The notes beneath the pieces were generated by a model that saw only the letters and a program-made list of their open reading frames with translations, was not told the origin of the DNA and ran no database searches. From assembly GCA_025774935.1 (NCBI GenBank), contig JALGZK010000001.1, positions 274,266-338,265 of the forward strand: a DNA stretch of 64,000 nt. Direction: 5' to 3'. The stretch is from a bacterium (GTDB taxonomy: Bacteria > Joyebacterota > Joyebacteria > Joyebacterales > Joyebacteraceae). The position numbers and the translations under genes were made by a program. Numbering within the stretch: the first letter of the stretch is position 1; each line of letters opens with the position of its first letter. This document shows positions 291-21,030 of this stretch, in pieces.

Positions 291-1721
291 GTGAGCAAGG
301 ACGACCTCACGTTCGAGACGATCGTCGGCAGGGTCGTCGGCGAGCTCCAGTCGAGAGGAGAGGTGCCGGCTGACGAGGCGCCGCCTCCGTTCGACGGCCG
401 CGGGATCCTCACCGACGTCGACAGCGCGGTGCGCGCCGCTCGATCGAGCTTCCTCGAGTTCCAGGACGTCACCCTCGAGCGCAGGCGCGACATGATCGCC
501 GCCATGCGCGATGCCGTTCTCGGTAACGTCGAGCGCCTCTCCCGCCTGGCGGTGGATGAGACGGGGCTGGGCCGCTACGAGGACAAGCTCAGCAAGAACG
601 CGCTCGTCGCGACGAAGACCCCGGGGCTCGAGGATCTCGTCCCGGTCGCCTTCTCGGGCGACCACGGCCTCGTCCTCGTGGAGCGCGCGCCATACGGCAT
701 CATCGGCTCGGTCACGCCGTCTACGAACCCGTCCGAGACCATCATCTGCAACGCCATCGGCATGGTCGCGGGCGGGAACGCCGTCGTCTTCAATCCCCAC
801 CCGAGCGCGCGCGTCGTCTCCCTTACGACCATCGACATCCTGAACCGCGCCATCTCGGAGGCAGGAGGCCCGAGGGCGCTCCTCCACACAGTGGACGCGC
901 CCAGCATCGAGACCGCCCAAGAGCTCATGGCCCATCCGGGAGTCCGTCTGCTCGTCGTCACCGGCGGCCCCGGAGTCGTCCGCGCGGCGATGCAGTCGGG
1001 AAAGAAGGTCATCGCCGCGGGGCCCGGCAATCCGCCGGTCATCGTGGATGAGACCGCCGACGTCCCGGGAGCGGCGCGCGACATCATCGCGGGCGCGAGT
1101 CTCGACAACAACATCGTCTGCATCGCGGAGAAGGAGATCATCGCCGTCAAGGCGATCGCCGCCGACCTCACGCGCGCGCTCGTCGAAGCGGGAGCGGTCG
1201 AGGTCAGGGGACAGGGTGTCGACCGGCTGACGGAGCTCGTGGTCGAGGAGGACCTCGGGCCCGGTAAGAGCTCGAAGGTCAACCGCGAGCTCATCGGCAG
1301 AGACGCGAGCGTGATCCTCGGGGCGGCCGGGCTGCCGTGCAGGAACGACGCGCGGCTCGCGTTCTTCCAGGCAGACCGCGACCATCCGATGGTCTGGACC
1401 GAGCAGATGATGCCGGTGATCCCCATGGTCGTGGTCGAGAACGCCCGTGAGGCGATCGACCTCGCCAGGGAGGTGGAGCGCGGGTACGGCCACACCGCCG
1501 TCGCGCACTCGAGGAACATCGAAGTGCTCTCCAGAATGGCGAGGGTCATGAACGTCTCGATCTTCGTGAAGAACGGTCCCTCGTACGCAGGCCTGTCGTT
1601 CGGCGGCGAGGGGTACACGAGCTTCACGATCGCGAGCCCGACGGGGGAGGGGCTCACGTCCGCGAAGACGTTCACCCGCGAGCGCCGCTGCACGCTCGTC
1701 GACTACTTCCGGATAGTGTAG
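291..1721 (+). CDS. CoA-acylating aldehyde dehydrogenase of a microcompartment (EutE/PduP-like)
   Basis: 476 residues, the usual size for EutE/PduP enzymes, which oxidise an aldehyde with NAD+ and CoA to acyl-CoA inside BMC shells. The probable catalytic cysteine is Cys277 in NNIVCIAEKE, and the nucleotide-binding region includes TPSTNPSE and VTGGPGVV. Residues 6-23 (LTFETIVGRVVGELQSRG) form a short amphipathic helix followed by an acidic/proline-rich linker; PduP carries its shell-targeting peptide in the same position. The GTG start at 291 is preceded by a GGGGAG ribosome site about ten bases upstream. It lies between a vertex protein gene and a PduS-like gene. The substrate is inferred from the aldolase at 4310-5086 to be lactaldehyde; acetaldehyde or propionaldehyde is possible. 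Confidence 0.93.
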   Translation: MSKDDLTFETIVGRVVGELQSRGEVPADEAPPPFDGRGILTDVDSAVRAARSSFLEFQDVTLERRRDMIAAMRDAVLGNVERLSRLAVDETGLGRYEDKLSKNALVATKTPGLEDLVPVAFSGDHGLVLVERAPYGIIGSVTPSTNPSETIICNAIGMVAGGNAVVFNPHPSARVVSLTTIDILNRAISEAGGPRALLHTVDAPSIETAQELMAHPGVRLLVVTGGPGVVRAAMQSGKKVIAAGPGNPPVIVDETADVPGAARDIIAGASLDNNIVCIAEKEIIAVKAIAADLTRALVEAGAVEVRGQGVDRLTELVVEEDLGPGKSSKVNRELIGRDASVILGAAGLPCRNDARLAFFQADRDHPMVWTEQMMPVIPMVVVENAREAIDLAREVERGYGHTAVAHSRNIEVLSRMARVMNVSIFVKNGPSYAGLSFGGEGYTSFTIASPTGEGLTSAKTFTRERRCTLVDYFRIV

Positions 1722-1741
1722 CGAGCCGACGGGAGGGACGC

Positions 1742-3127
1742 GTGACCGCGTCGATAGCGGAGGCAGTCGAGAAGGCGGGGGTAGTGGGCGCCGGAGGCGG
1801 CGGCTTCCCGACGCACGTCAAGGCGACCGCGTCGGCGGAGGTCCTCCTCGTCAACGGCGCCGAGTGCGAGCCCCTGCTGCGCTCGGACACGGAGCTCCTT
1901 CTGGACCACGCGGAGCGCGTCGTCCGCGGCGCCGAGCTCATGCGCGACTCCGTCGGCGCCGGCCGAGCCGTCGTGGCGCTCAAGAAGAAGAACGAGGCAG
2001 CCGTCGACGCGGTCGAGCGCGCGCTCCCGGCGGGCGGGGTCGAGCTCACGCTCCTCGAGAACGTCTATCCGGCGGGGGACGAGTTCCTCCTCGTCTACGA
2101 CACGACCGGCCGCGTCGTCCCCGAGGGCGGAATCCCGCCCGACGTCGGTGTCGTCGTCAGCAACGTGACGACACTGTCGCAGGTCGCGGACGCTGTCGAG
2201 GGGCGGCCGGTGACCTCGAGACTCGTCACCGTGCAGGGAGAGGTGACAGAACCCGCGACCTTCCGCGTGCCCGTGGGAACGCCGATCGGAGAGGTCGTGG
2301 CTCTCACGGGTCCTCCGACGGCCGCGGACACGGTCGTCCTGGCGGGCGGGCCGATGATGGGTCGAGTCGTCGAAGCCCTCTCGGAGCCCACGACGAAAAC
2401 GGACGCGGGACTGATCGTGCTCCCGGCGGACCATCGGATGGTCACGACGCGGACGGCGACCGACGCCTACGTCCTCAGGATAGCGCGCGCGGCCTGCTGC
2501 CAGTGTCTGGCCTGCACGGAGCTCTGCCCGAGGTTCCTCCTCGGGCACGAGCTCATGCCGCACCGGACCGTGCGGGCCGTGCAGTACGACACGCTCGAGG
2601 AAGACCACGACCACGTGACGTCTGCCTTCCTCTGCTGCGAGTGCGGGATGTGCGAGCTCTTCGCATGCCCGCTCGAGATCCAACCGCGGCGGATCCTCGC
2701 CGCGCTCAAGGCCGAGCTCGCCCGGCGCGGCATCGAGAACCCGCACCGGAGGACCGGCCTCACCGCTGTCGGCGTGAGGGACTACCGGCAGATCCCGTCC
2801 GCGCGCCTCGTGCAGAGGCTCGGACTCTCGCAGTACGACGGCCCGGCGCCGTTCGACCCGCGAAAGGTGGAGCCCGTGCGCGTCGTCCTCAGGCTGCAGC
2901 AGCACACCGGCGCTCCGGCCCGACCGGTCGTCGATGAGGGGCAGCGCGTGCTCGAGGGCGACCTCGTAGGAGAGATCCCTGACGGCTCGCTCGGCGCTCG
3001 CGTGCACGCGAGCATCGACGGGACCGTCGAGTCGGTCAGCGAGAGTGAAGTCGCGATCGTCCTGAACCAGCCGCAGGCCGGCGGGGCCACGGCCCGGCGG
3101 GGCCGTGGAGGAGACCAGTCGTCTTGA
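1742..3127 (+). CDS. PduS-like flavo-iron-sulfur electron-transfer protein (RnfC/SLBB family)
   Basis: 461 residues. An N-terminal glycine-rich loop (VGAGGGGFPTHVKA) matches the flavin/NADH site of PduS, RnfC and the Nuo51 superfamily. Two ferredoxin-type clusters follow: Cys252-x2-Cys255-x2-Cys258-x3-Cys262-Pro and Cys298-x2-Cys301-x2-Cys304-x4-Cys309-Pro. The last 60 residues resemble a lipoyl/RnfC-like barrel (DEGQRVLEGDLVGE). PduS reduces cobalamin in the propanediol compartment and binds the PduT shell protein; here the PduT-like gene follows directly and overlaps by four bases (TTG start inside the stop region). No B12-dependent enzyme is seen in the window, so an NADH-oxidising electron conduit is an equally good reading. 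The GTG start at 1742 follows GGGAGG. Confidence 0.9.
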   Translation: MTASIAEAVEKAGVVGAGGGGFPTHVKATASAEVLLVNGAECEPLLRSDTELLLDHAERVVRGAELMRDSVGAGRAVVALKKKNEAAVDAVERALPAGGVELTLLENVYPAGDEFLLVYDTTGRVVPEGGIPPDVGVVVSNVTTLSQVADAVEGRPVTSRLVTVQGEVTEPATFRVPVGTPIGEVVALTGPPTAADTVVLAGGPMMGRVVEALSEPTTKTDAGLIVLPADHRMVTTRTATDAYVLRIARAACCQCLACTELCPRFLLGHELMPHRTVRAVQYDTLEEDHDHVTSAFLCCECGMCELFACPLEIQPRRILAALKAELARRGIENPHRRTGLTAVGVRDYRQIPSARLVQRLGLSQYDGPAPFDPRKVEPVRVVLRLQQHTGAPARPVVDEGQRVLEGDLVGEIPDGSLGARVHASIDGTVESVSESEVAIVLNQPQAGGATARRGRGGDQSS

Positions 3128-3672
3128 GAGAAGCGATCGGAGTCATCGAGACCATCAGCATAGCCGTCGGCGTGGCCATCGCCGACGAGATGGCGAAGAC
3201 CGCCGACGTCGAGCTCCTCGAGGCGAGCGCAATCTGCCCGGGCAAGTACCTCATCCTGGTCGCCGGAGACGTGGAGTCGGTCGATTGCTCACTCGCGCGG
3301 GGGATCGAGGTCGGCGGAGACGTGGTCGTCGACACCCTCTTCATCCCACACGTCCATCCCCAGGTCTTCCCGGCCATCCTCGCGGCGACCGACATCGAGG
3401 AACTCGAAGCGCTGTGCGTCGTCGAGACCTTCACGGCGGCTTCCTCGATCCTCGCGGCCGACGCGGCCGCCAAGGCGGCCCGGGTCGAGCTCATCGAGAT
3501 CCGGCTCGCGAAGGGCCTGGGCGGGAAGGGCTTCTTCGTCATGACAGGCGAGATCTTCGAGATCGAGGCGGCGCACGAGGCCGCTCTCAGGATCGCGCGC
3601 GAGGGCGGCACGCTCGTGCGGAGCGTCGTGATCCCGAGGCCGCACGGCGACCTCGCACCCAAGGTGCTCTGA
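3124..3672 (+). CDS. PduT-like BMC-T shell protein (tandem BMC domain)
   Basis: 182 residues made of two BMC domains, roughly residues 1-90 and 94-180; each begins with the family signature (AIGVIETISIAVGVAIADEM and ALCVVETFTAASSILAADAA). Cys38 in AICPGKYLI is at the position where PduT binds a 4Fe-4S cluster at the pseudo-threefold pore, and the ending SVVIPRPHGDL matches the PduT tail. Trimers of this family sit in the shell facets and may pass electrons through the pore. The TTG start at 3124 overlaps the stop of the PduS-like gene, indicating translational coupling, as expected for interacting partners. Confidence 0.93.
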   Translation: MREAIGVIETISIAVGVAIADEMAKTADVELLEASAICPGKYLILVAGDVESVDCSLARGIEVGGDVVVDTLFIPHVHPQVFPAILAATDIEELEALCVVETFTAASSILAADAAAKAARVELIEIRLAKGLGGKGFFVMTGEIFEIEAAHEAALRIAREGGTLVRSVVIPRPHGDLAPKVL

Positions 3673-3716
3673 GGAACGGGCCGCGTCGGCCGACAGCGGC
3701 CACCGGAGGACGAGAC

Positions 3717-4001
3717 GTGCATCTTGCCAGGGTCATCGGCACGGTCTGGGCGACGCAGAAGGTCGAGACGCTCGCGGGCTACAGGCTCCTCGTCGTCCAG
3801 CCCCTCACGCACGAACTCAAGGAGAGCGGCCGCCCCCTCGTTGCCGTCGACACCGTGAGCGCCGCCCCCGACCAGGTCGTCTTCGTCGTCAAGTCCCGCG
3901 AAGCGAGCAAGGCGCTCGAGGAGCGCTTCAATCCGGTCGACGCGGCCATCATCGGCATCGTCGATCACGTCACCCTCGCCTCCGGGCGAGTGGGCCCCTG
4001 A
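3717..4001 (+). CDS. EutN/CcmL-family BMC vertex protein
   Basis: 94 residues, matching the small beta-barrel EutN/CcmL family: opening strand LARVIGTVWATQKVETLAGYRLLVVQ-type, then VAVDTVSAAPDQVVFVV, and the closing IIGIVDHVTL. Pentamers cap the vertices of BMC shells. The GTG at 3717 is chosen because it sits nine bases after an accGGAGG ribosome site and gives the expected family N terminus; longer in-frame readings run back into the PduT-like gene. It lies between the PduT-like gene and another vertex protein gene. At least three different vertex-type proteins are encoded in this part of the locus. Confidence 0.93.
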   Translation: MHLARVIGTVWATQKVETLAGYRLLVVQPLTHELKESGRPLVAVDTVSAAPDQVVFVVKSREASKALEERFNPVDAAIIGIVDHVTLASGRVGP

Positions 4002-4034
4002 GCGTCGCCAGGAGACGGGGTTGCGGAGGTCGAT

Positions 4035-4307
4035 GTGTTCATCGCGCGGGTCATAGGCGAGGTCGTCTCCACCGTTCGGCACGATTCGCTCGCCGGACGT
4101 AAACTCCTGATCGTGGAGAAGCTCTCGGCCGACTCGGAGCCCCTCGGGGACTCCGTTCTCGCGGTGGACTCGGTCGACGCGGGAGTCGGTGACAAGGTGC
4201 TCGTCATGGACGAGGGGAGCTCGGCGGCCATCGTCACCGAGCTTCCAGACCCACCGATCCGGACGGTGATCGTCGGCGTCATCGACGAGATCGACATCGA
4301 GGTGTAG
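4035..4307 (+). CDS. EutN/CcmL-family BMC vertex protein, second complete copy
   Basis: 90 residues, family hallmarks FIARVIGEVVSTVRHDSLAGRK at the start and VIVGVIDEIDIEV at the end, with the central LAVDSVDAGVGDKVLVMDEG. It differs from the copy just upstream by many substitutions, so it is a paralogue rather than a recent duplication. The GTG start at 4035 has GGAGG six bases before it. The aldolase start comes only two bases after its stop, so the two are probably co-translated. The role is shell vertex capping, known for the family and inferred here. Confidence 0.93.
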   Translation: MFIARVIGEVVSTVRHDSLAGRKLLIVEKLSADSEPLGDSVLAVDSVDAGVGDKVLVMDEGSSAAIVTELPDPPIRTVIVGVIDEIDIEV

Positions 4308-4309
4308 GC

Positions 4310-5086
4310 GTGCTCTCCGAATTCGAAGCGAGACGTGACATCGTCGAGATCGGCCGCCGAATCTGGCAGCGCGGGTACGTCGCGGCCAACGACGGGAACC
4401 TCAGCGTGAGGCTCCCTGGCGATCGCATCGTCGTGACGCCGACCGGGCGATCGAAGGGCTTCCTGCATACAGACGACATGATCGTTGTCGACCTCGACGG
4501 ACGGAAGCTCCACGGGAGCCGCGAACCGTCCTCCGAGCTCCCGATGCATCTGTTCGCGTACCGGAAGCGTCCGGACGTGGGAGCGGTCGTCCACGCGCAC
4601 CCGCCGCGGGCGACCGGGTTCGCGGTCGCTGGGGTCCCGCTCGCGCAGTGCATCCTCCCGGAGGTGATCCTCACGCTCGGGAAAGTGCCGCTCACGTCGT
4701 ACGCCACGCCGTCGACCGAGGAGGTGCCCGAGTCGATCGAGGAGTTCGTCGGATGCTGGAACGCGCTCCTCCTCAGGAACCACGGGGTCCTCACACTCGG
4801 AGCGGACATCGAGCAGGCGTACTTCAGGCTCGAGACCGTCGAGCACTTCGCCGAGATCACGCTCTCGGCGAGGGTCCTCGGCGGCGCCTCGCCCCTGACC
4901 GGCGAGGACGTCAAGAAGCTCCTCAAGGTGAGAGAGGCTCTCGGCCTCGCCGGCACGCCGGCGACGTGCAGAAGCTGCGGCGCCTGTCAGGACGGCGCCG
5001 GGACCGCGGACGGGCCTGTGGACGCGACCGAGGACATCATCCGGGCCGTGGTCGCAGAGGTCGAGAAGGCGATGGGGAAGGGCTGA
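4310..5086 (+). CDS. Class II aldolase with BMC cargo peptide (fuculose/rhamnulose-phosphate aldolase type)
   Basis: 258 residues. Class II aldolases of the FucA/AraD superfamily cleave L-fuculose-1-P or L-rhamnulose-1-P to dihydroxyacetone phosphate and L-lactaldehyde using zinc. Visible here are the catalytic Glu76 (SSELPMH), zinc ligands His95 and His97 (HAHPP) and His158 (RNHGV), and the phosphate-binding NDGN and TPTGRSKG segments. After the catalytic domain comes a Cys220-x2-Cys223-x2-Cys226 motif, a Gly/Ala/Asp-rich linker, and a C-terminal amphipathic helix (residues 237-256) typical of BMC targeting peptides. The GTG start is two bases after the vertex-protein stop. The gene ends the visible BMC operon; exact sugar specificity cannot be read from sequence. 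Confidence 0.9.
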   Translation: MLSEFEARRDIVEIGRRIWQRGYVAANDGNLSVRLPGDRIVVTPTGRSKGFLHTDDMIVVDLDGRKLHGSREPSSELPMHLFAYRKRPDVGAVVHAHPPRATGFAVAGVPLAQCILPEVILTLGKVPLTSYATPSTEEVPESIEEFVGCWNALLLRNHGVLTLGADIEQAYFRLETVEHFAEITLSARVLGGASPLTGEDVKKLLKVREALGLAGTPATCRSCGACQDGAGTADGPVDATEDIIRAVVAEVEKAMGKG

Positions 5087-9185: not shown

Positions 9186-9761
9186 CTAGGACCCCCTCTT
9201 CCGGCCGCGCCAGAGATGCGACGTGTCGCGCCGCGGGGTGCTTCGCTGCTCCTTGCTGCGGTCGGGGTCCTTCTGACTGCTCTTCTCCTTGCTTCGTTCG
9301 GGGTCCTTCTGGCTGCTCCTCTCCGGTGTCTTGCGCGTCTCGTCCTTGACGCTCGACCGGGGTGGCTGCGCGACAGGCGGGGTCACCTGCGAGCCCCTCG
9401 TCCCGCCCGTAGCGAAGCCCCATCCACTACTGGCCAGACCGCTCGTCTGCCACAGGTGGCGCGAACCCGTCTCTGCCGGAGAGCCTCCGCCCCCCGGAGT
9501 GTCGCACCAGTACCACCACCAGCAGTCGTAGTACCACCACGGGTAGCCGTAGAAACCGTTCCACCAGTAGTGGGACCGGGCGTAGCCGTAGTAGGGATGG
9601 TAGTAGGACGACTCGGCGTGGCAGTCGGCGCAGGACTTGTAGTCGTCCCCGGCGTGGACGACCTCGGGGCCGGTCGGGTGTCTCATCACCGTGTAGCACC
9701 CGGCGGCGAGAGCAAGAAGAACGAAGAGGAGCAGGGCGAGCGGCAGCGTTCGCAATCTCAT
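9186..9761 (-). CDS. Aromatic-rich lipoprotein with one CxxCH haem-type motif
   Basis: 191 residues, not assignable to a named family. A lipoprotein signal peptide ends in LAAGC (lipidated Cys22). A single Cys44-Ala-Asp-Cys47-His48 motif could hold a c-type haem. Residues 53-86 are extraordinary: 20 of 34 are Tyr, Trp or Phe, with two more cysteines. The C-terminal half is low-complexity and charged, with a 12-residue tandem repeat (SSQKDPERSKEK) and a Lys/Arg-rich end. The ATG at 9761 has GAGGAGG at good spacing. It is the first gene of an operon with the FadL-like porin. Haem attachment is inferred from the motif only. Confidence 0.75.
   Translation of the reverse strand: MRLRTLPLALLLFVLLALAAGCYTVMRHPTGPEVVHAGDDYKSCADCHAESSYYHPYYGYARSHYWWNGFYGYPWWYYDCWWWYWCDTPGGGGSPAETGSRHLWQTSGLASSGWGFATGGTRGSQVTPPVAQPPRSSVKDETRKTPERSSQKDPERSKEKSSQKDPDRSKEQRSTPRRDTSHLWRGRKRGS
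9249..9320 (-). repeat. 36-base tandem repeat, two copies, inside the CxxCH lipoprotein gene
   Basis: Copies at 9249-9284 and 9285-9320 are near-identical and encode the repeated charged 12-residue unit in frame. Confidence 0.8.
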
Positions 9762-10129: not shown

Positions 10130-11500
10130 TTGGCGCGGCGCAGACTAAGAACCCGCGGTGCGAGCCGAACGATCGCACTCCTGACACTGCTGCTCGTCGC
10201 GGGGCTCGCGATGCCGGCGGCCGGGACGCAGGAGGCCCGGCGGATCGAGCGCAGCGCGCAGGCGTATCTGCACTACAGCCTCGGTCGTCTGATGGAGATC
10301 GAAGGAGCGTACTCCGAGGCACTGGTCCAGTACCGACGGGCCGCGTCGATCGACTCGCGGCACTGCGAGATCGGGACGGCGGTCGCAAGGACCCTCCTGG
10401 CGCTCGGGCGGACCGACGAGGCGCTGGAGGCGATCCTGGGGGCGCGCGGCGAGTGTCCCGAAGATCTCGCGGCGCTGGCCGTTCAGGCACGCGTGCATCT
10501 GGCAAGGGACGAACTGCGCGAGGCGGAGGCCATTCTCTACGGTCCCGCCTGGGAGGATGGCGCACCGGGCGCTCTGATCGCCCTGCTCGGGCAGACGCTC
10601 GTCTCACAGGGGCGCATCGAATCGGCGGAGGAGCTCTACAGGACGAAGGCGTCGGTCGACAGCCTCGCCCCGAGGATCGCGTTCCTGCACGCCAGCGCGC
10701 TCCTCATCGCCGGCAAGCTCGAGGAGGCCGCCGACGAACTGAAGCGCGCGAAGCGCCTCGACCCCGAGAACCGTGAACTCGACGGCCTCCTCGGCCGCCT
10801 GCTCGTCGACATCGGGAAGCCGGAGGAGGGTGTGCCGATACTCGTGCCCATCGCGGACGGCGCGCACCCGACCGCAGAGGAGCTGACCGCGCTCGCGCGG
10901 GGCTATTCGGCGCTCGGGGAACCGGAGCTCGCCCTCGACAGGGTCGATCAGGCCGAGCGGGTCCACGGCAAAACACGCGGGACAGCGATCGCGCGGGCGG
11001 GCGTGCACCACGACGCCGGCAACGAGGACGCTGCCCTCGCCGCGTACGAGGCCGTCCTCGAGATCGACCCCGACTATCTCGTGGCCCTCAACTACGTCGC
11101 CTACTCGCTCGCCGACGCGGGGAAGGACCTCGACCGCGCGGCCGGCTTCGCGGAGCGTGCCGTCGAGATCGCTCCGGACAACCCGTTCATCAGGGACACT
11201 CTCGGCTGGGCGTACTTCCGCCTCGGACGACTCGAGGAGGCGGGGGCCGAGCTCGAGACAGCTGTCGAGCTCGGTGGAACGGATGCCGTCATTCTCGAGC
11301 ATCTCGGCGACGTCTACCGTGATCTCGGTCGGATCGAGGACGCCGTCGAGGCGTGGTCTCGAGCGCTGGCATCCGAGCCGGACCGCGAATCGACACGCGA
11401 GAGGCTGGAGTCGGCCGGCGCTGAGCTCCCGGAGGCGCCCGCCGGAGCCGGCGACGCCGGAAGAGCCGGAGGAACGACCGGATCGGGAGGGGAGCAGTGA
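10130..11500 (+). CDS. Exported TPR-repeat protein
   Basis: 456 residues. The N terminus has an Arg-rich start and a hydrophobic stretch (signal peptide, about residues 1-32). The rest is tetratricopeptide repeats, such as LGRLMEIEGAYSEALVQYRRA and LGWAYFRLGRLEEAGAELETA, which normally form a protein-binding superhelix. The TTG start at 10130 is chosen because GGAGG stands five bases before it and it gives a clean signal peptide. Its stop overlaps the GTG of the next lipoprotein gene by four bases. Comparable TPR genes sit beside DUF4292 lipoprotein genes in Bacteroidetes. Likely periplasmic scaffold; exact partner unknown. Confidence 0.85.
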   Translation: MARRRLRTRGASRTIALLTLLLVAGLAMPAAGTQEARRIERSAQAYLHYSLGRLMEIEGAYSEALVQYRRAASIDSRHCEIGTAVARTLLALGRTDEALEAILGARGECPEDLAALAVQARVHLARDELREAEAILYGPAWEDGAPGALIALLGQTLVSQGRIESAEELYRTKASVDSLAPRIAFLHASALLIAGKLEEAADELKRAKRLDPENRELDGLLGRLLVDIGKPEEGVPILVPIADGAHPTAEELTALARGYSALGEPELALDRVDQAERVHGKTRGTAIARAGVHHDAGNEDAALAAYEAVLEIDPDYLVALNYVAYSLADAGKDLDRAAGFAERAVEIAPDNPFIRDTLGWAYFRLGRLEEAGAELETAVELGGTDAVILEHLGDVYRDLGRIEDAVEAWSRALASEPDRESTRERLESAGAELPEAPAGAGDAGRAGGTTGSGGEQ

Positions 11501-12330
11501 GCCGGTCCGGTGGCAGGCTTCGCACGCTCCCCGCGGTGCGGGCACTCGTGGCGGCGCTGGCTGTCCTGGTCGCTGGCGGGTGCGCGCGCGTCCCCGAACC
11601 CGGTGAGCCCATCTCCGCGCCCGAACTCGACGCGCTCGTGGCTGCACTGGACTCGCATCTCGCCCACGGCGCCGTGCTCAGGGGCACGGGCTCGGGCGAG
11701 ATCGTCGTGTCAGGCCGCACGCTCCGGCACGAGTTCGCGCTCGTCTACCGCAGGCCGGGGCTGCTCCGGGCAGACCTCCGCCCGGACGTCGCGTTCGTCG
11801 GGTCGTCGCTCACGGCCCGGACCATCATGGAGGACGATTGTGTGCGGGCGTATTTCCCCGCTCGTCTCGTCGAAGTGCGGGGGTGCTTCGAGGATGTATT
11901 CGGCGACCTTGGGATCGCGGATCCTCCGGGCTTCCTCGTGGGGTTCCCGGACCCGTCCTATCTCGCGCGGCTCGACGACCCGACCTCAGCGGGCGGCGAT
12001 GGCTCGATCGTCGTGACCGGAACCTACGGCGGTCGACTCGTCACGACCACGATCGATGCTGAGCTCGGGGTCGTCCTCGGAATCCTCGTCGAGGAACCAG
12101 GCGACGAGCGAGTTCAGATGACCTACGAGGGACACGGGTGGAAGGACGGGCTCCCGGCGCCCCGGTCCATGAAGCTCCGCGCGTTCGAGGGGACGACGCG
12201 GGAGGTGCGGTTCGACATCGCCTACGACTCTCTCCGAACGAGCACGCCGCTCGAGCCCGATGAACTCAGATTCGAAGTCCCGCCGGGCGTAAGGGTCCTC
12301 ACGTGGGAGGACCTGCTCTCAGGGAGGTAA
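11497..12330 (+). CDS. LolB/DUF4292-like outer-membrane lipoprotein
   Basis: 277 residues. The signal peptide ends in a lipobox-like VAGGC (Cys about 29). The remainder looks like a single curved beta-sheet domain of the LolA/LolB superfamily: GSGEIVVSGRTL, FALVYRRPGLLRADL, an amphipathic central helix (CFEDVFGDLG), then strands GSIVVTGTYGG and ending FEVPPGVRVLTW. DUF4292 proteins of Bacteroidetes share this layout and gene neighbourhood. A role as a LolB-type receptor for outer-membrane lipoproteins is inferred, not shown. The GTG start overlaps the TPR stop, and the DUF4837-like gene follows two bases after its own stop. Confidence 0.65.
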   Translation: MSRSGGRLRTLPAVRALVAALAVLVAGGCARVPEPGEPISAPELDALVAALDSHLAHGAVLRGTGSGEIVVSGRTLRHEFALVYRRPGLLRADLRPDVAFVGSSLTARTIMEDDCVRAYFPARLVEVRGCFEDVFGDLGIADPPGFLVGFPDPSYLARLDDPTSAGGDGSIVVTGTYGGRLVTTTIDAELGVVLGILVEEPGDERVQMTYEGHGWKDGLPAPRSMKLRAFEGTTREVRFDIAYDSLRTSTPLEPDELRFEVPPGVRVLTWEDLLSGR

Positions 12331-12332
12331 CC

Positions 12333-13343
12333 TTGCAGAGACCGAGACCGATCATCTGGATCGCCGCACTCCTCCTGCTGCCGCTCTCGTGCTCCGGGCC
12401 TGTCGTCACGGCCGTGGGGGAGAGCAATGACCTCGTCATCATCCACGATGGCGAGGCCACCGGACGCGCCAGGAACCAACTCGTCCGCGCCATGGAGTCC
12501 GGAGTTGACTGGCTCCTCGGCGAAGCGGCCTTCAACACGACCGTCACGACCCCCACGATCGCCCGCGACCTCAGGAATCGCAGGCAGATCCTGGTCGTCG
12601 GGATCTGGAACGGCGGCGACGTCGAACGCGAGATCGCTCGGAAGATCCGCAGTCTCGACCGCGACGCGCCGCCACGACTGCACATCGAGCGAGACATCTG
12701 GGCGAAGGGTCAGACGGTCGGCGTGATCATGGGCGGCAGCGAGGACGCGCTCGTCGAGTACATCTCAGAGCACGGCCCGGAGCTCCTCTCCGAGTTCGAG
12801 ACGGCGGTCAGAGCCAGGGCGGTCGACAAGCTCAGGTCCGCGGCGGCGGAGAGCGGCGCCACAGACGAGCTGGGCCGCCGATTCGGATGGTCGCTGGCCC
12901 CGCCGACGGGGTACGACTTCTTCACGACTGACGCCGCGGACGGGTTCGTCTTCTTTCGACGGATACGGCCGGACCGGACGGTCTTCGTCTTCTGGCAGGA
13001 GGGGGAGGAGCACTTCGTCACGGAGGAGTTCGTCGTCTCGAAGCGCGCGGAGCTCTCGAGACACTACTACGACGGAGACGAGATCGAGTGGAGGCGTCCC
13101 CTCAGGATCGAGCCGGTCGAGTTCGCCGGAAGGAGCGCGCTGCGCGTATCCGGATGGTGGGGCAATCGCGAGCGCGTGGGGGGCGGTCCGTTCCTGACGT
13201 ACTGCTTCTACGAGCCGACCCAGGGTCGCGTCTACCTGGTCGACGCAACCCTCTTCGCGCCGTCGATGGACAAGGTGTCGTTCGCGAGAAACCTGGACGC
13301 GGTTGCCAACACGTTCGCCGTGCATCCGCTGCCGGAACGCTAG
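12333..13343 (+). CDS. DUF4837-like envelope lipoprotein
   Basis: 336 residues. A hydrophobic leader followed by LPLSC suggests a lipoprotein, though the lipobox is imperfect. The body resembles the DUF4837 family: RQILVVGIWNG, the conserved DIWAKGQTVGVIMG stretch, ISEHGPELL, and a C-terminal domain beginning GWSLAPPTGYDFF. The function of the family is unknown. The TTG at 12333 follows AGGGAGGTAA at good spacing and is preferred over an in-frame ATG at 12303 inside the previous gene. Third gene of the TPR/DUF4292 operon. Confidence 0.65.
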   Translation: MQRPRPIIWIAALLLLPLSCSGPVVTAVGESNDLVIIHDGEATGRARNQLVRAMESGVDWLLGEAAFNTTVTTPTIARDLRNRRQILVVGIWNGGDVEREIARKIRSLDRDAPPRLHIERDIWAKGQTVGVIMGGSEDALVEYISEHGPELLSEFETAVRARAVDKLRSAAAESGATDELGRRFGWSLAPPTGYDFFTTDAADGFVFFRRIRPDRTVFVFWQEGEEHFVTEEFVVSKRAELSRHYYDGDEIEWRRPLRIEPVEFAGRSALRVSGWWGNRERVGGGPFLTYCFYEPTQGRVYLVDATLFAPSMDKVSFARNLDAVANTFAVHPLPER

Positions 13344-17738: not shown

Positions 17739-20321
17739 GTGGCAGTCTTCGACCACATGACCGACGACAGAAGGCGCCAGCTCGTCGGCGTGCTTCTCCT
17801 GTTCCTTGGCCTCCTGATCGCCGTGAGCCTCGGAACGCACGTCTACTTCTCCCTCTCCGACAACCTGGGATCCGAGATCTGGACGACTCAGCTGGGCGTC
17901 CAGAACAGACAGGTCGCGAACGGGATGTTCGACCTGCTCGGCATCTGCGCGTGGGTGGTCCCGATCCTGCTCGTCCTCTGGGGATGGAACCGCCTCACCG
18001 GGAACGACCCCGAGAACCTCGCACTCAAGAGCGTCTTCCTCACGGCCGTCTCGCTCATCGCGGTTGCCCTCGTGCACGTCCTGGGCGGAGAGCGGGTGGC
18101 GGCGGTCACGGGCGTCGTCGGCGCCTACCTCGCCGACTTCGCGACGATGCACATCGGCAAGGTGGGGACCTTCCTCGCCGGAGCCGGCGCGATCGTCGTG
18201 ATCACGCTCCTGACGACGGAATTCGACATCGACGCCCTGACGGCGCCGTTCATAGCGTTCGGTGAGTGGGTAGGCACGACGTTCGACTCGGTCCGGGACT
18301 GGGCGAGCGAGCGGGCGGAGCGCAAGCCGCGCGTCCGGTCGAAAGCGACGCGCGCGGAACGAGCGAGGCCGGCACGCGCCGGACGCCGCGAGGCGAAGGC
18401 AGAAGAGCGCGCCGAGCGACCGAAGCGGGTCCGAAGGACGAGGGAAGAGGCTCCAGCGCAGGAGACGCCCGAGCCCGCGCCCAGGAAGGCCGCGCCGAAG
18501 GCTCCGAAGATCATGCAGGCCAAGGCCCCGACGCGAGCGAAGGCCGCCGTCCGGAAGGCGCCGCCCGGCGGCTACCGCCTCCCGCCGCTCTCGCTCATGG
18601 ACGACCCGCCGGACGAGGCGCACACGCAGGTGTCGAAGGAGGAACTCCTCGCGCGCTCGAAGTTGCTCGAGGAGAAACTCGCCGACTTCGGCGTCACCGC
18701 CGCCGTCGTGAAGGTGCACCCCGGACCGATCATCACGAGGTTCGACATCGAGCCCGCGCGCGGCGTCAAGGTGAGCCAGATCTCGAACCTCCAGGACGAC
18801 CTCGCGCTCGCGATGCGGGCCACGAGAATCCGCATCATCGCCCCGATCCCGGGGCAGGGCGCCGTCGGCATCGAGATCCCGAACGAGCACCCCGTCATGG
18901 TCTACCTGAAGGACATCATGGCGGCCGACACCTATCAGAAGGTCTCCTCGGAGATTCCGCTCGCGCTCGGGAAGGACACGACCGGCAGGGTCGCCTGCGC
19001 CGACCTCGCGAAGATGCCGCACCTTCTCGTGGCGGGAGCCACGGGGTCCGGCAAGAGCATCTGCCTGAACGCGCTCCTCACGGGGATGGTGTTCCGCTCG
19101 ACCCCCGACGAGGTTCGGTTCCTCATGATCGATCCGAAGCGGCTCGAGCTCCCTCGCTACGCGGGAATCCCGCATCTGCTCGCTCCCGTCGTCACCGATG
19201 CGAAGCAGGCGGCGATGGCTCTCCAGTGGCTCGTGGGAGAGATGGACCGGCGGTACGACATCCTGTCGGCCCTCACGGTGCGCGACATCTACGGGTTCAA
19301 CCGGCGAGTCGTCGAGGGCGACGACCTCGAGGCGCTCCCGCCGGAGGACCGGCACCGCCTGCCTCACATCGTCGTCATCGTCGACGAGTTCGCCGACCTC
19401 ATGGTCCGCGCGCCACGGGAGGTCGAGGCTCCCGTCCAGAGACTCGCGCAGATGGCGCGGGCCGTCGGAATCCACCTCGTCTTCGCGACCCAGCGGCCGT
19501 CGGTCGACGTCATCACGGGCGTCATCAAAGCGAACTTCGCCTCCCGGATCGCGTTCCGCGTCATATCGATGATCGACTCGAGGACCGTGCTCGACCGGAA
19601 CGGCGCGGAGACGCTCCTCGGGAACGGGGACATGCTCTTCCTGCCGACGGGGAAGCCCGAGCCCATACGTCTGCACGGCGCATTCATCTCGCCCGAGGAA
19701 ACGAAGAGGGTCGTCGCGTTCCTCAGGAAACAGGGACCGCCGAACTACCTCTTCGACATCGAGGACAAGGGCGGCATGGCGAAGCTCGCCGCCGCACAGC
19801 AGGACGATCTCTACGAGAGAGCGGTGGAGGTCGTCGTCGGGACGCAGATGGGCTCGACCTCGCTCCTGCAGAGACGGCTCTCTGTGGGCTACGCCCGCGC
19901 CGGACGCCTGATGGACCTCCTCGAGATGAACGGCATCGTCGGGCCGTTCAAGGGCAGCAAGGCGCGCGACGTGATGGTCGGGCCGGAGTATCTCGAGACC
20001 ATGGCGGCCGGCGTCGCCACCGCGACCGCGCTCGATCCCGACGAGGAGTTTGAAGAAGCGGCGGACGACGACGACGGATTCCTCGAGGGAGAGGAGTGGG
20101 AGGAGGAAGAGGGCGAGACCGAGGAGGAAGAAGAGGACGAGGACGAACACGAGGAGGAAGGCGAGGAAGAGAACGGGGACGAGGAGGAGGACGAGGAAGA
20201 GGAAGAGGAAGAGGACGACGAGGAAGAGGAAGAGGAAGAGGACGACGAGGAATACGAGGAAGAGGACGAAGAAGACGAGGATGACGAAGAGGAAGAAGAG
20301 GACGACGAAGACAGGGAGTGA
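17739..20321 (+). CDS. ftsK: DNA translocase FtsK with long acidic C-terminal tail
   Basis: 860 residues. Four or five membrane segments lie in residues about 20-180, then an Arg/Lys/Ala/Pro-rich linker (about 185-285), the RecA-like motor with Walker A GATGSGKS (near residue 435) and Walker B-type IVVIVDEFADLM, and a complete winged-helix gamma domain (about 690-760, DNA reading). FtsK moves DNA at the septum and activates XerCD at dif. Unusually, about 94 residues follow the gamma domain (from about 767), almost entirely Glu and Asp. The GTG at 17739 follows GGAGG. lolA appears to start inside the tail. Confidence 0.95.
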   Translation: MAVFDHMTDDRRRQLVGVLLLFLGLLIAVSLGTHVYFSLSDNLGSEIWTTQLGVQNRQVANGMFDLLGICAWVVPILLVLWGWNRLTGNDPENLALKSVFLTAVSLIAVALVHVLGGERVAAVTGVVGAYLADFATMHIGKVGTFLAGAGAIVVITLLTTEFDIDALTAPFIAFGEWVGTTFDSVRDWASERAERKPRVRSKATRAERARPARAGRREAKAEERAERPKRVRRTREEAPAQETPEPAPRKAAPKAPKIMQAKAPTRAKAAVRKAPPGGYRLPPLSLMDDPPDEAHTQVSKEELLARSKLLEEKLADFGVTAAVVKVHPGPIITRFDIEPARGVKVSQISNLQDDLALAMRATRIRIIAPIPGQGAVGIEIPNEHPVMVYLKDIMAADTYQKVSSEIPLALGKDTTGRVACADLAKMPHLLVAGATGSGKSICLNALLTGMVFRSTPDEVRFLMIDPKRLELPRYAGIPHLLAPVVTDAKQAAMALQWLVGEMDRRYDILSALTVRDIYGFNRRVVEGDDLEALPPEDRHRLPHIVVIVDEFADLMVRAPREVEAPVQRLAQMARAVGIHLVFATQRPSVDVITGVIKANFASRIAFRVISMIDSRTVLDRNGAETLLGNGDMLFLPTGKPEPIRLHGAFISPEETKRVVAFLRKQGPPNYLFDIEDKGGMAKLAAAQQDDLYERAVEVVVGTQMGSTSLLQRRLSVGYARAGRLMDLLEMNGIVGPFKGSKARDVMVGPEYLETMAAGVATATALDPDEEFEEAADDDDGFLEGEEWEEEEGETEEEEEDEDEHEEEGEEENGDEEEDEEEEEEEDDEEEEEEEDDEEYEEEDEEDEDDEEEEEDDEDRE
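20039..20318 (+). repeat. Polypurine tract encoding the FtsK acidic tail
   Basis: About 280 bases composed nearly only of G and A on the + strand, built of GAG/GAA/GAC codon runs. Such polypurine-polypyrimidine DNA is prone to slippage and triplex formation. It contains the proposed lolA start. Confidence 0.8.
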
Positions 20322-21030
20322 CGCTGGGCCCGCCGCTCGGCGGGTCTTCCGGTGCTCGATCGCGGCGGTCGGAATGGCGACGGCCGCGTTTCTGATGATC
20401 GCGTCAGCGTGCGTCGCACAGAGCGCAAGCGCGTCACCGGAGGTGGAGGAGGCCCGCGCGCTCGTCGCGTCCGTCATCGACAGGTACGAGAGCTCGCGCT
20501 CGTACGAGATCGAGTTCACGCAGGAGAACTTCTGGGCGCTCGCCGATACGACACACGCGATCGAAGGCGTGTTGCTGCTCGAGCGTCCGGACCGGCTCTC
20601 GGTCACCTACGACGACGGTGGGCGGATCGTCGTCGACGGCGACAGCCTCCGGGTCTTCGTGCCGGCGACGAATCAGTTCTTCACGTCCTCCATCGACTCC
20701 TCTGACGTCATGCTCGACCCCGCGAGGCTTCTCCGTCAGTTCACTCCGGACACCGAGCGGCCGTTCGAGCCGCTCGACGGAGCAGGCGGTCTTCGTGCCC
20801 TGAACCTGCGTCCGCTCAAGAGCTTCGTCGAGCCGGCGCACGTCCAGGTGACGATCGACACTGCGAGACGAGTCGTCGTCCGGCTCGTGGCCCGCACCAC
20901 GACCGGCGACCGCACGACGTACCGGATGCGCGCCACCCGATACGACGTCCCGACCCCTGACAGCGAGTTCGAGCTGAAGCTGCCCGCCGGGGCGGAGCGC
21001 ATGACAGGCTCGCCCTTCGCCGGCAGCTGA
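20281..21030 (+). CDS. lolA: Outer-membrane lipoprotein carrier protein LolA
   Basis: LolA-family periplasmic chaperone that ferries lipoproteins to the outer membrane. Family features: YESSRSYEIEFTQENFW, EGVLLLERPDRLSVTYDDG, IVVDGDSLRVFVPATNQFF, LRPLKS and a final TPDSEFELKLPAG. The signal sequence is ARRVFRCSIAAVGMATAAF followed by a hydrophobic run and SASA. The start is uncertain: ATG 20281 overlaps ftsK by 41 bases and supplies a basic n-region, while ATG 20374 would leave a leader with no positive charge. High third-position G+C continues upstream of 20374, favouring the longer form (249 residues). The first visible part of the Lol pathway; LolCDE are not here. Confidence 0.82.
   Translation: MTKRKKRTTKTGSDAGPAARRVFRCSIAAVGMATAAFLMIASACVAQSASASPEVEEARALVASVIDRYESSRSYEIEFTQENFWALADTTHAIEGVLLLERPDRLSVTYDDGGRIVVDGDSLRVFVPATNQFFTSSIDSSDVMLDPARLLRQFTPDTERPFEPLDGAGGLRALNLRPLKSFVEPAHVQVTIDTARRVVVRLVARTTTGDRTTYRMRATRYDVPTPDSEFELKLPAGAERMTGSPFAGS

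Follow-up and report, generated by a model that had tools for sequence, protein, structure and literature searches.

A three-gene operon with a probable LolB-type lipoprotein beside an LbcA-like TPR gene in a candidate bacterial phylum

We analysed a stretch of 64,000 nt (henceforth, the window) from contig JALGZK010000001.1 of a bacterium assigned to the Joyebacterota, the source genome of which (3.24 Mb in 40 contigs) is 96% complete. Three consecutive genes on its forward strand encode a tetratricopeptide repeat (TPR) protein, a lipoprotein that is probably the LolB-type outer-membrane lipoprotein insertase of the phylum, related to LolB1 (DUF4292) of the Bacteroidota, and a lipoprotein of family DUF4837. 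The second is called the LolB-like protein below. The features concerned, in window coordinates, are the following:

10130..11500, + strand: TPR protein, open reading frame (ORF) of 456 amino acids with a signal peptide without lipobox and an LbcA-like TPR superhelix
11497..11500, + strand: start/stop overlap GTGA, the LolB-like start over the TPR stop
11497..12330, + strand: probable LolB-type lipoprotein of 277 amino acids, remote homologue of DUF4292/LolB1
11581..11583, + strand: lipobox cysteine C29 of the LolB-like protein, invariant in 18 of 18 sequences
11788..11802, + strand: residues 98–102 in the predicted beta3-beta4 loop, candidate LolB insertion loop, hydrophobic at 100/101
11839..11886, + strand: C115 and C130 in the hairpin 115–120/125–130, possible disulphide, from the joint presence or absence of the two cysteines in 18 sequences
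12333..13343, + strand: DUF4837 lipoprotein of 336 amino acids with two domains and lipobox C20 (from the PF16125 match, the model and the fold search)
20308..21030, + strand: LolA, the presumed donor, PF03548 over cut-off; its start codon is uncertain, 20308 being the start of the analysed stretch only

All three ORFs open where a preliminary description of this DNA had placed them, and its claim that they form one operon is borne out: they are tightly packed, and consecutive in all 17 relative loci of the same candidate phylum. The TPR gene starts with TTG at 10130, preceded by GGAGG, the LolB-like gene with GTG at 11497 and the DUF4837 gene with TTG at 12333, 2 bases past the LolB-like stop. 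We assigned the start codons from the Shine-Dalgarno match and the lipobox; lipoprotein signals were judged from the lipobox in the sequence. With starts so assigned, the 4-base overlap of the TPR and LolB-like genes is kept in 13 of the 18 loci (the window and its 17 relatives), and the interval between the LolB-like and DUF4837 genes stays within -4 to +4 bases in all 18. The operon packing is conserved beyond chance expectation. Further downstream, the gene order is that of the window as far as each relative stretch reaches, i.e., TPR2, EF-P, AccB, AccC, ComB, FtsK, LolA and RimO (names given by eye, except TPR and LolA). The lowest identity to the window protein is 25% for the LolB-like protein, 38% for DUF4837 and 41% for the TPR protein (18, 16 and 16 rows, respectively); by this measure, the LolB-like protein changes fastest. 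Named contigs scanned with the alignment of DUF4837 yielded 16 loci, one in Flammeovirga and the others in 15 genomes from metagenomes, which bear the titles Candidatus Eisenbacteria, Candidatus Effluviviaceae or simply “bacterium”. Promoter and terminator scans of the locus were uninformative.

Searches with single sequences and family models return little for the LolB-like protein. At E ≤ 5, Pfam has no family for the window protein (most matches above E 0.1 are removed by the filters of HMMER, in this as in the other search at E ≤ 5), and in NCBIfam it gives no match to NF053559 (LolB1); its single hit there, to an anti-sigma model, has E 0.059 and stays well under cut-off. PF14125 (DUF4292) has no match anywhere in the genome at E ≤ 1, and one of the 18 family members reaches it, at E 0.4. 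PF03550 (classical LolB), with which the 18 members but not the whole genome were searched, gives no match at E ≤ 5. A PDB search with the profile of the family merely yielded a tail match to LolA 2w7q (E 0.75).

The relation emerges when profiles are compared with profiles. Against an alignment of DUF4292 (30 rows; effective sequence number, Neff, 6.3), the LolB-like family scores P 9.8e-8 (prob 94) over 226 columns, and against the phylum's own LolA (9 rows; Neff 2.7), P 3.9e-4 (prob 36) over 137 columns, while the unrelated DUF4837, taken as a control, gives P 0.0048 (prob 7) over 16 columns of signal peptide. Twenty-five of the 30 DUF4292 proteins match the NCBIfam model “lipoprotein insertase outer membrane protein LolB1” (NF053559; E ≤ 0.001), and at 6.7e-14 the DUF4292 profile finds Porphyromonas gingivalis LolB (9tpm, a PDB entry under the name “DUF4292 domain-containing protein”); going by these matches, DUF4292 is LolB. 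It is present in all 61 sampled Bacteroidota genomes. The label “LolB/DUF4292-like”, given in the preliminary description, therefore stands as a statement of remote homology, by profile and by fold, and falls as a family assignment, since no Pfam or NCBIfam model matches.

An AlphaFold2 model of the LolB-like protein (18-sequence alignment; predicted local distance difference test, pLDDT, 84.3; predicted template modelling score, pTM, 0.78) consists of an N-terminal helix and a long run of strands. Its top Foldseek match is 9tpm (E 1.3e-10), with LolA proteins next. The VIA comparison with 9tpm gives Z 18.6 (221 aligned residues; root-mean-square deviation 3.3 Å), ahead of 3bk5 (Z 15.9), the DUF1329 protein 4z48 (15.7), P. 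gingivalis LolA3 (14.9), P. aeruginosa LolA and NE2245 (both 12.9), Escherichia coli LolB 1iwm (12.4) and RseB/MucB (about 7). From the ranking in both searches, the predicted fold alone places the protein in the LolA/LolB superfamily, nearest to Bacteroidota LolB, in keeping with the LolA/LolB fold supposed at the outset.

Between the model strands 89–96 and 107–112 lies the predicted beta3-beta4 loop (97–106), which carries a hydrophobic residue at position 100 or 101 in 18 of 18 sequences and a glycine at 102 in 13 of 18. A leucine in this loop of known LolB proteins matters or is exposed (E. coli Leu68, L74 of LolB1 in Flavobacterium johnsoniae and Leu77 of LolB-PG; PMC11885536, PMC13103446; here and below, articles are cited for those parts of their text that were available). 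Seventeen of the 18 sequences have the two cysteines C115 and C130, and the 18th has neither; that the pair is kept or lost together suggests a disulphide.

Like LolB1 and LolB-PG of the Bacteroidota, the LolB-like protein is a predicted lipoprotein with the Bacteroidota-type LolB fold and has 9tpm as its best structural match; an invariant proline in its beta2-beta3 turn sits near Arg64 of LolB-PG (by eye). It differs from them in remaining below all curated cut-offs and in its cysteine pair, the like of which we did not see (by eye) in the DUF4292 alignment; moreover, a M23 peptidase is encoded downstream of DUF4292 in the Bacteroidota (three of three ORFs tested), whereas DUF4837 follows here. 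With LolB of beta/gamma-proteobacteria (PF03550), it shares the fold and the lipoprotein nature, but it is larger, has no match to the sequence model and lacks an ispE gene downstream.

The preliminary description had stated that the genome has lolA, which is so: the gene lies in the same window. TIGR00547 scores its product at 48.5 bits, below the cut-off of 112. Among 20 genomes of the phylum, 18 have a LolB-like homologue (12 of the 13 of good quality) and 16 have LolA when it is sought with a profile from nine sequences (12 with the Pfam LolA model alone). All 16 also carry the LolB-like gene; a genome with detectable lolA and without it, looked for throughout this set, was not found. In G003 (same family, 96% complete) and G015, we found neither LolB-like protein nor LolA; for G003, pathway loss, strong divergence or an assembly gap may be the cause. 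For a LolC/E-type permease, the genome gives one match over cut-off and four weaker ones below it. The permease gene sits between lysS (by eye) and a gene for an ABC ATPase, which we take for LolD from its position; the pair fits the arrangement lolF-lolD, described as typical in a review (PMC11784454). The lolD-type gene (locus L129, 1004-3301, - strand; genome G000, contig C22) is followed by a McsA-like ORF (by eye, no Pfam hit) and then by an arginine-kinase-like gene (PF00217, McsB-like).

The TPR gene provides a second line of comparison. A PDB search with the profile of the TPR family has LbcA (PA4667) of Pseudomonas aeruginosa as its best natural chain (E 7e-38), in a co-linear alignment of profile 73–415 with chain 179–520 (7rqf). 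In a single-sequence phmmer search with the window protein, a designed TPR and OGT outscore LbcA; since other TPR proteins thus rank higher, the likeness rests on co-linearity, the reverse search and synteny together. In that reverse search, with a LbcA fragment against the genome, the window TPR is the best of eight hits (1.4e-12; the next, 1.1e-7). Window TPR and LbcA align co-linearly over some 340–390 residues, and both genes precede lolB. They differ in that LbcA is an outer-membrane lipoprotein, whereas the window TPR has no cysteine at the end of its signal peptide; the TPR homologues of Neisseria and of the Bacteroidota locus L127 also lack a lipobox cysteine, and the Halomonas homologue has one. 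Moreover, most of the alignment lies past the N-terminal domain with which LbcA binds CtpA and activates it (PMC11021448), its main part starting at chain residue 146 (phmmer) or 179 (profile). The genome does encode, at another site, a homologue of CtpA that carries a CtpB_N domain. Because lipobox and clear adaptor domain are missing, we do not accept a CtpA-adaptor function for the window TPR.

In P. aeruginosa, lbcA shares its operon with both lolB and ipk (PMC6050968). Acinetobacter cumulans has the annotated order hemA, TPR, lolB, ispE, and in Halomonas sp. PA16-9 and Neisseria gonorrhoeae, TPR, lolB and ispE likewise follow one another (LolB by PF03550, ispE by eye); these are three of three records examined among four plasmid-collection hits, the fourth being a second N. 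gonorrhoeae. The LbcA-like TPR gene hence directly precedes lolB in four beta/gamma-proteobacteria (Pseudomonas, Acinetobacter, Halomonas and Neisseria). No TPR gene adjoins lolB in E. coli K-12, and a scan of viral contigs for LbcA relatives found none. In 27 of the 61 Bacteroidota genomes, the gene immediately preceding DUF4292 is the one that scores best genome-wide with the TPR profile, and two more, in which the adjacent hit is not genome-best, bring the count to 29; TPR hits are located elsewhere in 25, and seven have no hit at 1e-12. Five of these seven show a weaker TPR match (19–35 bits) right upstream of DUF4292, making 34 of 61 in all, and the other 27 genomes speak against a strict pairing. 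A C-terminal signature, LN..AY.LA ... D(T/S).GW.YF ... HLGDV, recurs in most of eight rows from three phyla (the cross-phylum TPR alignment is out of register in its N-terminal half and was used for this signature only).

The pair of LbcA-like TPR and lolB occurs in three phyla. That such a gene stands directly upstream in beta/gamma-proteobacteria, in part of the Bacteroidota and here argues that lolB is old, rather than a recent proteobacterial invention, and the common neighbour also argues that classical LolB, LolB1 and the LolB-like protein are one old gene; alternatively, the pair may have been transferred between phyla. A wider proposal, possible but somewhat short of likely in our estimate, is that the pair goes back to the ancestor that Pseudomonadota share with the FCB (Fibrobacterota–Chlorobiota–Bacteroidota) group, such that LolB would be no recent invention of the beta/gamma-proteobacteria and the LbcA-like TPR a general LolB partner, docking LolA with its cargo or coupling lipoprotein insertion to cell-wall hydrolysis, the CtpA-adaptor role in Pseudomonas being a later addition.

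The pathway would run as follows. The LolC/E-type permease, with LolD, would free lipoproteins from the inner membrane, and LolA would carry them across; the LolB-type protein, anchored by C29 at the outer membrane, would take the cargo from LolA and insert it. Localisation, transfer and insertion are assigned to the LolB-like protein by analogy with known Lol systems. Judging from gene order, the co-translated LbcA-like TPR protein could act in the periplasm as a partner that links the delivery of lipoproteins with remodelling of the cell wall, and DUF4837 could be a lipoprotein of the same zone, either client or accessory.

In favour of a LolB-type insertase, we also count that LolB of the Bacteroidota could not be deleted in Capnocytophaga canimorsus (PMC11885536). 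Several points weigh against it. P. gingivalis that has lost LolB (PMC13103446) and F. johnsoniae that has lost every LolA/LolB homologue (PMC11885536) remain viable, hence even a true LolB may be dispensable. The LolB-like protein matches none of PF03550, PF14125 and NF053559 directly, and the margin by which DUF4292 outscores LolA is partly an effect of depth, since the DUF4292 alignment is the deeper one. The structure model is built on only 18 sequences, and the fold scores fail to separate LolA from classical LolB (Z 12.9 versus 12.4). The loop residue at 100/101 is a candidate equivalent of the LolB leucine, its exposure being putative, and four genomes of one genus place the hydrophobic residue at 100, not 101. 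Lastly, G017 (90% complete) and G018 (57%) carry the LolB-like gene without detectable LolA.

The protein could instead be a LolA-fold lipoprotein with another job, a carrier or sensor of lipid or of mislocalised lipoproteins rather than an acceptor for LolA, in the manner of RseB/MucB- or DUF1329-type proteins; LprG and LppX are further examples. We consider this unlikely. It is true that the fold is common property, with 3bk5, 4z48, NE2245 and RseB/MucB among the structural matches, but the foremost match is a LolB that binds LolA at about 6–10 µM (PMC13103446), the profiles relate the family to DUF4292/LolB1, the LbcA-like TPR neighbour is one that lolB has too, and DUF4292 is not matched elsewhere in the genome. 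Marginally less probable still is that LolA completes delivery alone, as the bifunctional protein of Caulobacter does, the LolB-like protein serving special cargo only, like LolB2 of the flexirubin operon. A LolA of this kind is known (PMC11784454), and neither P. gingivalis nor F. johnsoniae depends on LolB for survival; however, the LolB-like gene accompanies LolA wherever the latter is detectable in the phylum (16 genomes) and keeps a fixed neighbourhood, unlike a pigment-operon paralogue, and the phylum's LolA appears to be polar in the corresponding region (window sequence YDDGG; mapped by eye). We therefore retain the LolB-type insertase as the best reading.

A survey describes lolB as exclusive to Proteobacteria (PMC8871954), and a review as confined to beta/gamma-proteobacteria and recent, unless it is too divergent to be recognised elsewhere (PMC11784454). 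LolB of the Bacteroidota was published in 2025 (LolB1, PMC11885536) and 2026 (LolB-PG, PMC13103446), with genetics and a crystal structure of these DUF4292 proteins, and LolB1 is already in NCBIfam. The idea that the operon holds a candidate for the missing acceptor of the FCB group was thus right in direction, a LolB-type acceptor being the best reading, and has been overtaken by these publications, by which “missing” is outdated. New here are the extension of LolB to another phylum, in a form too divergent for the models to detect, and the TPR gene as a common neighbour. Our literature search, with most of the subscription literature outside it, found no paper naming DUF4292 or DUF4837, or LolB together with Eisenbacteria; nor did it find, the available part of PMC8764530 included, the TPR-lolB pair as a cross-phylum feature or a test of a TPR-LolB link. 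With a distant version in a little-known phylum beside the same kind of TPR gene, LolB may be much older than thought, and a LolB-type protein beside an LbcA-like TPR in a third phylum makes it possible to test where LolB originated. Through its position, the TPR neighbour can help to locate LolB in cases that escape sequence searches, and its product is offered as a possible LolB partner.

The third gene matches PF16125 along the whole model (E 6.5e-33; 114.5 bits, cut-off 25; positions 2–295 of 295), in agreement with the DUF4837 label it had been given, and its lipobox cysteine C20 is invariant (16 rows). In the structure model (pLDDT 85.2), the C-terminal part (about 165–333) resembles PsbP (Z 13.4), LpqN (11.0), Mog1 (10.9) and DcrB (10.7), as well as SciW/EagT6 chaperones, and residues 30–160, approximately, form an alpha/beta domain as in GH84 (Z 9.3) and BcsB (Z 8.5); these closest predicted folds indicate no single function. 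In the Bacteroidota, DUF4837 is placed elsewhere, e.g., beside SLT/LysM genes: among 25 upstream ORFs scanned (three of the 28 loci, with no fitting upstream ORF, were left out), five match SLT, five LysM and ten tryptophan synthase alpha. DUF4837 is present in 28 of 61 Bacteroidota genomes, against 61 of 61 for DUF4292, and where both occur on one contig (eight genomes), the nearest distance is 5.2 kb; adjacency to lolB was seen in this phylum only. The idea of DUF4837 as a fixed lolB partner is weakened by this unequal presence and by the distance of at least 5.2 kb.

In one Bacteroidota genome (G070), a single 8-kb run comprises TPR, LolB, a M23/EnvC-like ORF, GatA, a SLT/LysM-type protein and DUF4837 (M23/EnvC-like, GatA and SLT/LysM named by eye; three M23/EnvC-like ORFs of other loci are M23). 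This run suggests that the window operon may have arisen by compaction of an older envelope cluster. The copy of the SLT/LysM-type protein in locus L105 is 41% identical to that of L097.

Divergent from the TPR gene, a lipoprotein gene (9186-9761, - strand) encodes a product with a single CxxCH motif, haem c-like, and a stretch rich in W/Y/H; this product has no Pfam family over cut-off, and the CxxCH is kept in all 14 loci checked. At 291-5086 (+ strand), genes for an aldehyde dehydrogenase, a Complex1_51K/RnfC-type protein (PduS-like by eye), a BMC shell protein and a class II aldolase appear to be part of a bacterial microcompartment (BMC) locus. The FtsK-like ORF (by eye; 17739-20321, + strand) has a very long acidic (Glu/Asp) C-terminal tail.

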